38,334 bases of DNA from Candidatus Chisholmbacteria bacterium RIFCSPLOWO2_01_FULL_49_14 (GTDB taxonomy: Bacteria; Patescibacteriota; Microgenomatia; UBA1400; Chisholmbacteraceae), in assembly GCA_001816915.1 (NCBI GenBank), contig MHCL01000011.1:14462-52795 (forward strand). Direction: 5' to 3'. Of the stretch, positions 3,683-17,231 are shown piece by piece. Both the position numbers and the translations under genes were made by a program. The notes beneath the pieces were generated by a model. It was not told where the DNA came from. It saw only the letters and a program-made list of their open reading frames with translations, and searched no databases. Position 1 is the stretch's first letter. Each line of letters starts with the position of its first letter.

Positions 3683-3770
3683 GCCGAGGTGGCGCCTGCC
3701 TGCGCAGGCAGGGAACTGGCCCGCCTCGAAGTGCCCCGCTGGCAAGGCGGGCTCGCGATACTCGTATAAG
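3683..3770 (+). pseudogene. tRNA-Leu-like 5' fragment interrupted by two palindromic inserts
   Basis: GCCGAGGTGGCG (as in tRNA-Leu(GAG) at 3842) + 18-bp palindrome + GAACTGGC + CCGCCTCGAAGTGCCCCGCTGGCAAGGCGGG hairpin + CTCGCGATACTCGTATAAG; no tRNA 3' half. Confidence 0.6.
3695..3712. repeat. 18-bp perfect palindrome CCTGCCTGCGCAGGCAGG
   Basis: Identical to 286-303. Confidence 0.9.
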
Positions 3771-3841: not shown

Positions 3842-3925
3842 GCCGAGGTGGCGGAACTGGCAGACGCGCAGTCTTGAGGTGGCTGTGGGAGAAATCCTGT
3901 GGAGGTTCGAGTCCTCTCCTCGGCA
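3842..3925 (+). tRNA. tRNA-Leu(GAG)
   Basis: GCCGAGG...CCTCGGC-A, anticodon stem-loop CAGTC TTGAGGT GGCTG. Confidence 0.93.
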
Positions 3926-3950
3926 CAATTCCTGTTTGTAATCGAAAGAA

Positions 3951-11719: not shown

Positions 11720-11790
11720 GCGGGATTAGTTGATCGGCTCAACATTTGCTTTCCAAGCAAAAAAGAGGGGTTCGACTCCCCTATCCCGCT
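11720..11790 (+). tRNA. tRNA-Gly(UCC)
   Basis: GCGGGAT...ATCCCGC-T, TTTGC TTTCCAA GCAAA. Confidence 0.93.
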
Positions 11791-11822
11791 CCCGTCTTTC
11801 GCTAAAGCTACAGACGGTAGCA

Positions 11823-12071
11823 ATGTATTACGTTTATATACTAAAGAGTTTAAAATCTGGTGTTCTTTATTACGGTTATACAGAGGATCTTAGAAAAAGA
11901 GTTAGAGAACATAACACTGGTAAATCTAAGTTTACAAAAGGTCTTATGCCTTGGAAATTAGTATGGTATTCTGCTTTTAAAGGCGTACGGAAGGCTAAAG
12001 ATTTTGAACTCTACATTAAATCAGGATCCGGCAAAGCCTTTGTGTATAAAAGATTAGTGGATGTAACTTGA
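11823..12071 (+). CDS. Single-domain GIY-YIG nuclease
   Basis: MYYVYILKSLKSGVLYYGYTEDLRKRVREHNTGKSKFTKG...KAKDFELYIKSG. Confidence 0.9.
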   Translation: MYYVYILKSLKSGVLYYGYTEDLRKRVREHNTGKSKFTKGLMPWKLVWYSAFKGVRKAKDFELYIKSGSGKAFVYKRLVDVT

Positions 12072-12093
12072 AAGAAAAACGGCAGTGAAGATA

Positions 12094-12136
12094 GAGGTGT
12101 TCCGAAGCTTTAGCGAAGGACTCCCCTATCCCGCTC
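12094..12136 (+). pseudogene. Partial duplicate of tRNA-Gly(UCC) 3' end with an insert in the T-loop
   Basis: GAGGTGTTC + CGAAGCTTTAGCGAAG + GACTCCCCTATCCCGCTC; the last 18 nt are identical to 11774-11791. Confidence 0.75.
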
Positions 12137-14778: not shown

Positions 14779-14880
14779 GCGCCCATAGCCCCGCGTGCCA
14801 TTGCCTGAGGCATGGACTTTGGCGGGCAGGTCAGTGGATAGAGCACCTGTCTTCCCCGCCTGCAAGTGCCTTGAGCGAGG
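14779..14880 (+). pseudogene. tRNA-Arg-like fragment interrupted by palindromic inserts
   Basis: GCGCCCATAGC + CCCGCGTGCCATTGCCTGAGGCATGGACTTTGGCGGGCAGG + TCAGTGGATAGAGCACCTGTCTTCC + CCGCCTGCAAGTGCC...; TAGC/TCAGTGGATAGAGC is tRNA D-arm sequence. Confidence 0.6.
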
Positions 14881-14882
14881 AA

Positions 14883-14954
14883 GCCGCCATAGCTCAACGG
14901 ATAGAGCAACCGCCTTCTAAGCGGTAGATGAAGGTTCGATTCCTTCTGGTGGCA
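14883..14954 (+). tRNA. tRNA-Arg(UCU)
   Basis: GCCGCCA...TGGTGGC-A, ACCGC CTTCTAA GCGGT. Confidence 0.94.
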
Positions 14955-14992
14955 CAGCGATTGGCGGGCAGGGATTCCTTACTGGAGGTACT

Positions 14993-16009: not shown

Positions 16010-16157
16010 TCCTCCTTCGCCAAGTCTATATTGGCTTCGGCAGGATTTCAGCTTTAGGATATGGAAAGAACTCTCGTGATACTAATCAGATAATCCGAGA
16101 GCTGAGAGACCTCGGAGCTTCAATCTGGTAAAATATACCTTAGATTGAGATGAGTAT

Positions 16158-16204
16158 GGTGGCCGTAGCCCTGCCTGCCGGCAGGCAGGTCAGCGGTAGA
16201 GCAT
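16158..16204 (+). pseudogene. Duplicate tRNA-His 5' end interrupted by a palindrome
   Basis: GGTGGCCGTAGC + CCTGCCTGCCGGCAGGCAGG + TCAGCGGTAGAGCAT; compare intact GGTGGCCGTAGCTCAACGGCAGAGCAT at 16455. Confidence 0.85.
16170..16189. repeat. 20-bp perfect palindrome CCTGCCTGCCGGCAGGCAGG
   Basis: Read directly. Confidence 0.95.
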
Positions 16205-16451
16205 GAGATATTACGCTTACATTCTGAAAAGTCTTAAAGACGGCAAGTGTTATACAGGAATTACGAATGATCTAATAAGAAGGATCAATCAACATCAATT
16301 GGGTGATGAAGCCACGCCATCGACACTGAATAGAGGTCCATTTAAGTTAATTCATGCAGAGGAGTGCGAAAATCGGCTGGTAGCAAGAAAAAGGGAGAAG
16401 TACTGGAAAAGTGGATATGGAAGAGAGTTAAGAGAGAGACTGTTTGGTTGA
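16203..16451 (+). CDS. Single-domain GIY-YIG nuclease
   Basis: MRYYAYILKSLKDGKCYTGITNDLIRRINQHQLG...RLVARKREKYWKSGYGRE; start codon lies in the tRNA-His fragment. Confidence 0.9.
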   Translation: MRYYAYILKSLKDGKCYTGITNDLIRRINQHQLGDEATPSTLNRGPFKLIHAEECENRLVARKREKYWKSGYGRELRERLFG

Positions 16452-16454
16452 TAT

Positions 16455-16527
16455 GGTGGCCGTAGCTCAACGGCAGAGCATCGCCCTGTGGAGGCGAATG
16501 TTGCGGGTTCGATTCCCGTCGGCCACC
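16455..16527 (+). tRNA. tRNA-His(GUG)
   Basis: G-1 GTGGCCG...CGGCCAC-C73, TCGCC CTGTGGA GGCGA. Confidence 0.95.
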
Positions 16528-16637
16528 CAAAAATTGAATTTAGAATCCTCTGCTTTTAGAATGTTAATTTAAAATAATGACTAAATACATATCATTGTAA
16601 AAGTAAAAATGAATTACTTTTTTTTAACATAAAAACT

Positions 16638-17231
16638 ATGTCAAACGTTGAAACAAAAAAGGAGTTGTCACCAGAACAACCTGCCTTGCCGGCAGGCAGG
16701 CGTGAGGAACTGATCAACGCATTAAAAGCCCGTTTTGAGAAAAACATGAACCGTCATAAAGGTCTTGAATGGGCTAAAGTACAAGCAAAGCTGGACGCCA
16801 ATGCCGGGAAACTGTGGTCGCTCTATGAAATGGAAAGAACCGGCGGTGAACCAGATGTTGTAGGTCGTGATTCTAAGACAGGCGAATACATTTTTTATGA
16901 CTGCTGCGCGGAAAGTCCTAAAGGCCGCAGAAGTGTTTGTTACGACCGCGAAGCGCTGGAGTCACGGAAAGAACATAAACCGGAAAATAACGCTATTGAT
17001 ATGGCTGCTGCCATGGGCATTGAACTTTTATCGGAAGAACAATATCGAGAGTTGCAGAAACTCGGAAAATTCGATACGAAAACGTCGAGCTGGGTGAAAA
17101 CACCTTCTGATATTAGAAAACTCGGCGGCGCTATCTTTGCTGATTTCCGCTACGGCAATGTCTTCGTGTCTCACAACGGTGCAGAATCTTACTATGCCGT
17201 TAGGGCGTTCCGTGGCTCGCTAAGGGTCTAA
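16638..17231 (+). CDS. DUF4256 family protein
   Basis: KALKARFEKNMNRHKGLEWAKVQAKL...ERTGGEPDVVG...YIFYDCCAESPKGRRSVCYDREALESRKEHKPENNAIDMAAAMGIELL. Confidence 0.85.
   Translation: MSNVETKKELSPEQPALPAGRREELINALKARFEKNMNRHKGLEWAKVQAKLDANAGKLWSLYEMERTGGEPDVVGRDSKTGEYIFYDCCAESPKGRRSVCYDREALESRKEHKPENNAIDMAAAMGIELLSEEQYRELQKLGKFDTKTSSWVKTPSDIRKLGGAIFADFRYGNVFVSHNGAESYYAVRAFRGSLRV
16680..16700. repeat. 21-bp near-palindrome CCTGCCTTGCCGGCAGGCAGG inside the DUF4256 ORF
   Basis: Encodes PALPAGR in frame. Confidence 0.9.

Follow-up and report, generated by a model that had tools for sequence, protein, structure and literature searches.

A free-standing GIY-YIG nuclease gene of Patescibacteria that probably moves among tRNA genes and restores the tRNA half that it breaks

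Why should the gene for a small nuclease begin within a broken copy of a tRNA gene and end just before an intact copy of that same tRNA? The question was raised by the window, a stretch of 38,334 nucleotides from contig C11; the genome concerned (G000, 1.2 Mb) has Patescibacteria as its relatives. A preliminary description of this DNA had reported a repeated stretch, a palindrome, a continuation of the D-arm beyond it, and a start codon that shares the AT of the tRNA sequence; all four were confirmed at 16155–16528. The parts of this unit follow one another as leader, tRNA-His nucleotides 1–11, palindrome, 15 further tRNA nucleotides, nuclease open reading frame (ORF P0001), four nucleotides, and the whole tRNA-His gene (Table 1). 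The gap between the nuclease stop codon and the tRNA, described earlier as 3 nt, has that length if the usual G−1 of tRNA-His is counted, and is otherwise 4 nt.

Table 1. Positions in the window of the two nuclease-bearing units and of two nuclease-free half-copies
Feature	Position	Strand	Basis and remarks
Abandoned 5' part of tRNA-His: TATG leader and tRNA nt 1–11 (the latter 16159–16169)	16155–16169	+	TATGGTGGCCGTAGC, present twice in the window; exact repeat of 16452–16466; missing in the empty relative G001
Perfect 20-bp palindrome CCTGCCTGCCGGCAGGCAGG, splitting the abandoned tRNA-His after nt 11	16170–16189	.	Sequence; same split and similar palindrome in L034
Abandoned tRNA-His D-arm continued, nt 12–26	16190–16204	+	13/15 nt match the intact copy; reads TCAGCGGTAGAGCAT, intact copy TCAACGGCAGAGCAT
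82-aa GIY-YIG nuclease ORF P0001 (ATG 16203–16205, borrowing the AT of the tRNA; stop codon 16449–16451)	16203–16451	+	PF01541, 59.7 bits; catalytic residues conserved
Intact tRNA-His(gtg), 5' part restored	16456–16528	+	ARAGORN and Rfam, 68.2 bits
Complete tRNA-Gly(tcc) in the mirror (type II) unit	11720–11792	+	ARAGORN and Rfam
Left inverted-repeat arm, second nuclease	11794–11814	+	Inverted repeat found in the window
Second GIY-YIG nuclease ORF, 82 aa	11823–12071	+	PF01541, 59.4 bits
Right inverted-repeat arm, second nuclease	12101–12121	+	Inverted repeat found in the window
Abandoned copy of the tRNA-Gly 3' end	12119–12136	+	Exact repeat of 11774–11791; cognate test
Abandoned tRNA-Arg 5' half with palindrome (14790–14830), without nuclease	14779–14855	+	By inspection
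Intact tRNA-Arg(tct), with palindrome arms apparently on both sides (about 14855–14882 and 14956–14972)	14883–14955	+	By inspection
Abandoned tRNA-Leu(gag) 5' part with two palindromes (3695–3751), without nuclease	3683–3751	+	Intact tRNA downstream, 3842–3926

The product of P0001 matched the GIY-YIG domain with an E-value of 3.4e-16, its 59.7 bits standing against a curated cut-off of 22.6, and the catalytic Tyr, Tyr, Arg, His/Tyr and Glu were all present. Across 160 aligned rows, Y6, Y17, G19 and E65 were invariant and R27 and H31 nearly so, in all layout classes; decay was also seen, as some nuclease matches contained internal stops. The nearest solved structures were the UPF0213 proteins 1zg2 (E 1.3e-13) and 1ywl (E 2.8e-13), followed by SLX1 and, weakly, I-TevI. 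A search of NCBIfam gave no informative match, and phage GIY-YIG families matched weakly in profile similarity (phrog_5123, E 0.0015). Transport by phages was considered and rejected, as a viral set of 2.9 million contigs held a single relative. Genome G000 contained three GIY-YIG matches: P0001, one after tRNA-Gly(tcc), and one inside a 462-codon frame that is taken to be UvrC.

An Rfam scan found no intron family at the tRNA-His locus, and the complete tRNA-His needs no splicing; a group I intron carrying a homing endonuclease was therefore rejected. No integrase gene was found: on the coding strand between the two copies of tRNA-His, the nuclease is the sole ORF that reaches 60 aa. We compared the locus with the tRNA-His site of the nearest relative compared, a member of the same family (G001). 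There, tRNA-Arg, an ORF and tRNA-His lie in the same order, and identity in the tRNA-His region reaches 94% across 16449–16531 of the window, but neither the nuclease nor the 5' fragment is present. This empty site, together with the recurrence of cognate halves described below, supports the earlier proposal that the nuclease inserted in tRNA-His while an intact tRNA was restored downstream; the nuclease-free relative does not carry the fragment. As in free-standing homing endonucleases, the gene is encoded outside introns and inteins and has gene-free orthologous alleles in relatives.

The closest nuclease found (L034) shares 56% identity with P0001 and comes from another family of the same class. 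It too was located in a tRNA-His that is split at the same nucleotide, and its palindrome starts with the same 16 nt. When L034 was aligned to the window by BLASTN, only 16155–16531 matched, that is, from the leader to the end of the tRNA, whereas the neighbouring genes did not align. These comparisons show that the element is mobile and restores the half of the gene that it displaces.

Independently, further empty sites were found at tRNA-Asn in a different genus from that of the window, where one occupied locus (L005, in G040) had three empty counterparts in as many species (G046, G052 and G036). The empty tRNA-Asn genes were preceded by a promoter-like stretch ending in TAAAAT and a leader ending in ATAT or TTAT. 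In G040 the matching promoter and leader preceded the abandoned fragment, and nuclease coding sequence preceded the intact tRNA-Asn. That is, because promoter and leader stand before the abandoned fragment, the insertion took place inside tRNA-Asn, downstream of the promoter, and the intact 5' part is the newcomer. In three other species of the same genus (L157, L158 and L159), an intron-like insert (CTG^TAATACATAACTTGCAGCG..) interrupted the anticodon arm of this tRNA-Asn instead.

Related nucleases were then gathered by protein similarity alone, within the order, within the phylum, in a GTDB-wide scan and, for the second nuclease, within the class; the census is thus a sample of the nearest relatives of three queries and not a random draw, and most of the genomes were metagenome-assembled. 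Among 164 distinct nucleases, 87 preceded an intact tRNA on the same strand (type I), 30 followed one (type II), 47 did neither, and none lay antisense to one. A same-strand tRNA therefore adjoined 117 of the 164. Single-domain GIY-YIG genes flanked by tRNA halves, like that of the preliminary description, were found at many tRNA genes, and the family stood overwhelmingly beside tRNAs with duplicated cognate halves. Type I targets comprised 26 anticodons, and the tRNA started from −46 to +116 nt relative to the nuclease stop. The nuclease stop codon coincided exactly with tRNA nucleotides 8–10 at 17 of 92 type I loci, as a TAG or TGA that made use of the near-universal U8.

We used a palindrome-aware score to compare the copy at each type I locus with the tRNA beside it. 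Results showed that the 5' copy of the locus's own tRNA beat all 25 non-cognate tRNAs at 62 of 87 type I loci (about 3 by chance), with the cognate half not detected by this test at 25 of 87. For type II, the cognate 3' copy was better than any non-cognate tRNA at 12 of 30 loci. Chance proximity to tRNA genes was ruled out by these non-cognate controls and by the 117 tRNA-linked cases against none antisense. A rank test that ignored the palindrome did not single out the tRNA-His locus of the window, whereas the palindrome-aware test did. Its layout is more than chance: the copy is that of the cognate tRNA, both are oriented alike, and dozens of genomes show the same arrangement.

The abandoned 5' fragment was split by an insert at 60 of the 62 loci. 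These inserts were 19–102 nt long (median 41.5), could mostly form hairpins, were often shaped CCCGCCYGC...GCGGGCRGG, and had ends with self-complementarity of at least 0.7 in 24 of 60 cases, versus 2 of 300 random pieces. Beyond the insert the tRNA sequence ran on for a median of 9 nucleotides, and the copy ended at tRNA nucleotides 12–33. The position of the split varied from tRNA nucleotide 6 to 25, unlike what one constant homing site would give, and a constant cut site within the D-loop is not supported for this reason. Tandem double units were seen at two loci (L140 and L102), the first with two different nucleases in one tRNA-Thr, a repeat invasion.

The preliminary description had not recognized the regular place of the palindrome in this layout, the nuclease-free scars at several tRNAs, or the mirror unit at tRNA-Gly in the window (11720–12136). 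In the latter, inverted repeats of 21 nt flank the nuclease, and an exact 18-nt copy of the 3' end of the tRNA lies beyond them. The tRNA-Gly unit is the mirror image of that at tRNA-His: its 3' part was restored and its old 3' part abandoned. A comparable position was found next to tmRNA, which was present at 6 of 40 scanned non-tRNA loci (L021, L022, L249, L260, L116 and L264). At the first four of these, tmRNA closely preceded the nuclease in the same orientation, so that the nuclease stood in the type II position, downstream of the tRNA-like 3' end.

We consider it probable that these genes belong to a free-standing GIY-YIG element that is mobile in Patescibacteria, resides in tRNA (and tmRNA) genes and makes good the half that it breaks. 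This reading builds on what the compared sequences show: presence and absence at orthologous tRNAs, restoration of a half, a cassette shared to the exclusion of its flanks, half-copies of the cognate tRNA, a junction that carries an insert, and intact catalytic residues. The nuclease would cut an uninvaded tRNA gene, either in the 5' part (type I) or near the 3' end (type II, tmRNA included). The break would then be repaired from an occupied copy, with the tRNA sequence on either side of the break serving as homology, and the unit copied in by such homing would bring a complete substitute for the severed tRNA half together with the palindrome and the nuclease gene. The host would keep a working tRNA, and the old half would be abandoned, still interrupted by the palindrome. 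The nuclease gene would end up between the tRNA promoter and the tRNA, and may be expressed from that promoter. Later decay or loss of the nuclease would leave half-tRNA scars as late stages. The element would survive because the essential gene that it invades is kept intact.

That the nuclease itself drives insertion by cutting is a step that we infer. Against the reading as a whole stand the varying split position, the 47 nucleases away from tRNAs and the 25 type I loci without a cognate half in the test, and the intact tRNA seems to keep a cleavable sequence. As for recoding of the intact tRNA as protection, single-base differences at most were seen. The palindrome could be an end of the element, a barrier to re-cutting or to recombination with the intact copy, or a block on competition in tRNA folding by the abandoned half.

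Scars were sought by inspection in G000, where nuclease-free half-copies were seen for Ile(tat), Ile(gat), Gln(ctg), Thr(cgt), Thr(ggt), Tyr(gta), Leu(gag) and Arg(tct). Together with the two nuclease-bearing loci, 10 of 36 tRNA genes had half-copies by inspection, a figure that is a lead and not a measurement because a strict automatic test found fewer and a modest excess (5/43 and 5/33, versus 2/34 in three non-Patescibacteria genomes). In both control cases, two complete tRNAs of the kind in question stood in tandem at the locus. Five loci on other contigs of G000 (L266, L270, L275, L292 and L293) showed Ile, Thr, Gln and Tyr half-copies beside the intact tRNA, mostly with palindromes. At 14779–14991 of the window, tRNA-Arg(tct) is apparently nested inside a split older tRNA-Arg, without a nuclease; similar nesting was seen for tRNA-Gly in G001 (L161, about 840–1010) and for tRNA-Gln(ttg) in G239. 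A nuclease-free locus in G006 (L178, about 1340–1500) held a tRNA-His 5' fragment, hairpins, a repeated leader of ~20 nt, and an intact tRNA-His.

By inspection, half-copies with palindromes were commoner without than with a nuclease in G000, and duplication may therefore not need the nuclease. Frequent solo scars fit a cycle of gain, decay and loss, and they also fit palindrome-driven duplication with the nuclease as a passenger. Ordinary segmental duplication, for example by template switching at palindromes, could make the half-tRNAs, and the nuclease could merely occupy a safe gap before tRNAs. Nuclease-free half-copies in both G000 and G239 would suit such an origin, as would the repetition of part of the leader in L178, but a passenger would not be expected to sit beside tRNAs so often and never antisense. 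We regard this explanation as improbable.

Our first methods of stem scoring missed imperfect hairpins, and folding energy was added. Upstream of the nuclease ATG, the median energy was −36.3 kcal/mol for type I and −38.0 kcal/mol for type II, compared with about −20 (−20.7) kcal/mol in controls. Such strong structure, along with the UPF0213 proteins as closest solved relatives, would be in keeping with a tRNA half and hairpin that form the regulatory leader of a resident, UPF0213-like housekeeping nuclease and are not debris of invasion. The target isotype, its position and the side concerned (5' or 3') vary, however, orthologous sites are empty in relatives, and scars occur without a nuclease, all of which makes a resident leader very hard to credit. 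Still less weight can be given to an artefact of assembly or binning. The prevalence of metagenome-assembled genomes invites that suspicion, but the pattern came from many independent genomes and studies, including G239, of the same class as G000, as a single contig of 1.02 Mb.

A quick maximum-likelihood tree of the nucleases (160 rows, 87 columns) left many forks unresolved, but contained one group of 71 rows with 65 type I members from many named phyla of Patescibacteria. Rows from Bacteroidota, Aminicenantes, Ignavibacteria, Campylobacterota and Thermodesulfobacteriota fell outside this group, and none of them lay at a tRNA. The amino acid of the target tRNA required 51 changes on the tree, versus 63.3 when shuffled (the least of 300 shuffles being 56), suggesting that target specificity is partly inherited and often switched.

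The nucleases away from tRNAs bear on the role of the palindromes. Tight inverted repeats surrounded the ORF at 22 of the 47 such nucleases, versus 5 of 141 controls, with ends such as TCCCGTTAGAG../..CTCTAACGGGA. Because arms so often flank the ORF tightly at non-tRNA loci, the mobile unit may end in the palindromes. Seven loci (L043, L045, L046, L048, L056, L058 and L255) held units of ~300 bp with inverted repeats CCCGTTAGAG../..CTCTAACGGG (a variant in L255). In several of the ~300-bp units the ORF ends within the right repeat, and the stop (TGA) overlaps an ATGA or GTGA that may be the start of the next gene.

At one further locus (L084, 2446–2840) the element was found in a protein gene, which reads as NAD-epimerase-like from the start of its sequence. 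A 28-nt piece of the 5' end of this gene is repeated, and palindrome arms (CCCGCCCGC../..GCGGGCGGG) enclose the nuclease within the duplicated 5' end. The restored gene begins with codons unlike those of the abandoned copy. It is thus not a plain local copy, which counts against segmental duplication as the source of the half-copies.

These loci raise the question of whether the palindromes are themselves the mobile unit, REP- or transposon-like, with the GIY-YIG nuclease as their mobilising enzyme, as the RAYT is for REPs. Insertion would then strike genes anywhere, and at tRNAs only insertions with a restored copy would survive. The tight repeats, the enclosed ORF of L084, the palindrome-split half-tRNAs without nuclease, and the dispersal of the same kinds of palindrome through the genome of G239 all agree with this. 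At type I tRNA loci, in contrast, the ORF stands outside a closed palindrome. Moreover, the exact core of the tRNA-His palindrome occurs once in G000, where a genome-wide repeat was rejected on this ground, dispersal in G239 notwithstanding, and solo CCCGTTAGA palindromes are scarce (two of nine genomes, with a single one in each). This explanation seems rather unlikely to us. A degenerate copy of the tRNA-His palindrome (CCTGCCTTGCCGGCAGGCAGG) was seen at 16680–16700 of the window, within a DUF4256 gene (16638–17231) whose frame is kept.

More broadly, the mobile element inside tRNA genes that we favor may be one form of an undescribed class of ~0.3-kb mobile elements, with palindromic ends and a single GIY-YIG nuclease of ~80 aa, spread across Patescibacteria. 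Such elements would move with dispersed palindromes and mobilise them, and would persist in essential RNA genes (tRNA and tmRNA) by means of a replacement half or, when nested, a whole tRNA. We offer this wider class tentatively, as a possibility that we take seriously but do not favor.

The Patescibacteria comprise a very large and mostly uncultured bacterial diversity, and the mobile content of their small genomes is poorly known. If our reading is true, selfish elements on essential tRNA and tmRNA genes, and not housekeeping nucleases, would account for a large part of the free-standing GIY-YIG genes in this group. Host tRNA halves would be swapped for incoming ones, leading to mosaic tRNA genes and to misled tRNA annotation. 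The unit also offers a simple, testable system for the intron-free invasion of an essential RNA gene, with a nuclease of 82 aa, a tRNA gene as target, and sequenced empty alleles. Lastly, the palindromic repeats of Patescibacteria genomes, for which we know of no named mover, would gain a candidate enzyme.

Several known systems resemble parts of this one. In fungal mitochondria, homing elements likewise combine partial gene duplication with an exchange of gene ends, and atp6 of Allomyces is a case in which a homing element carries a replacement gene end. The fungal elements concern introns and protein genes, whereas those described here concern bacterial tRNA genes and palindromes. Integrative elements and islands at tRNA 3' ends resemble type II, with an intact tRNA on one side and a direct repeat of its 3' fragment on the other; unlike these islands, our units are ~0.3–0.4 kb long and lack an integrase gene, and type I restores the 5' end.

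Phage T4 encodes SegB, a free-standing GIY-YIG homing endonuclease whose gene lies in a tRNA cluster and which cuts within tRNA genes (PMC2988022, PMC13096335), and some T4 homing nuclease genes have upstream hairpins (PMC2988022). The nucleases of Patescibacteria are likewise free-standing GIY-YIG proteins encoded beside tRNA genes, without an intron. SegB, however, lies between phage tRNA genes, and the passages covered in these accounts describe no abandoned, palindrome-split tRNA half (PMC2988022, PMC13096335). Unlike SegB, the present nucleases are chromosomal, ~80 aa long, and found at many tRNA isotypes. Insertion sequences in the rRNA genes of CPR bacteria carry GIY-YIG ORFs outside group I and II introns; they are sparse, and the authors judge them to lie outside spread by homing (PMC11270868). 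That system shares with ours the bacterial group and the use of structural RNA genes, but is confined to rRNA, and the words tRNA and palindrome are absent from the text of that paper.

In the portions of the open-access literature that were covered, we found no account of Patescibacteria in which GIY-YIG genes accompany restored tRNA halves, nor any that links GIY-YIG genes to REP-like palindromes. The REP/RAYT systems share with our units the pairing of short dispersed palindromes with one small nuclease gene; RAYTs, however, are Y1 (HUH) transposases, whereas the gene that adjoins the palindromes here encodes a GIY-YIG protein. Free-standing homing nucleases are known, and there is a real chance that the unit of palindrome and nuclease is a new kind of element.
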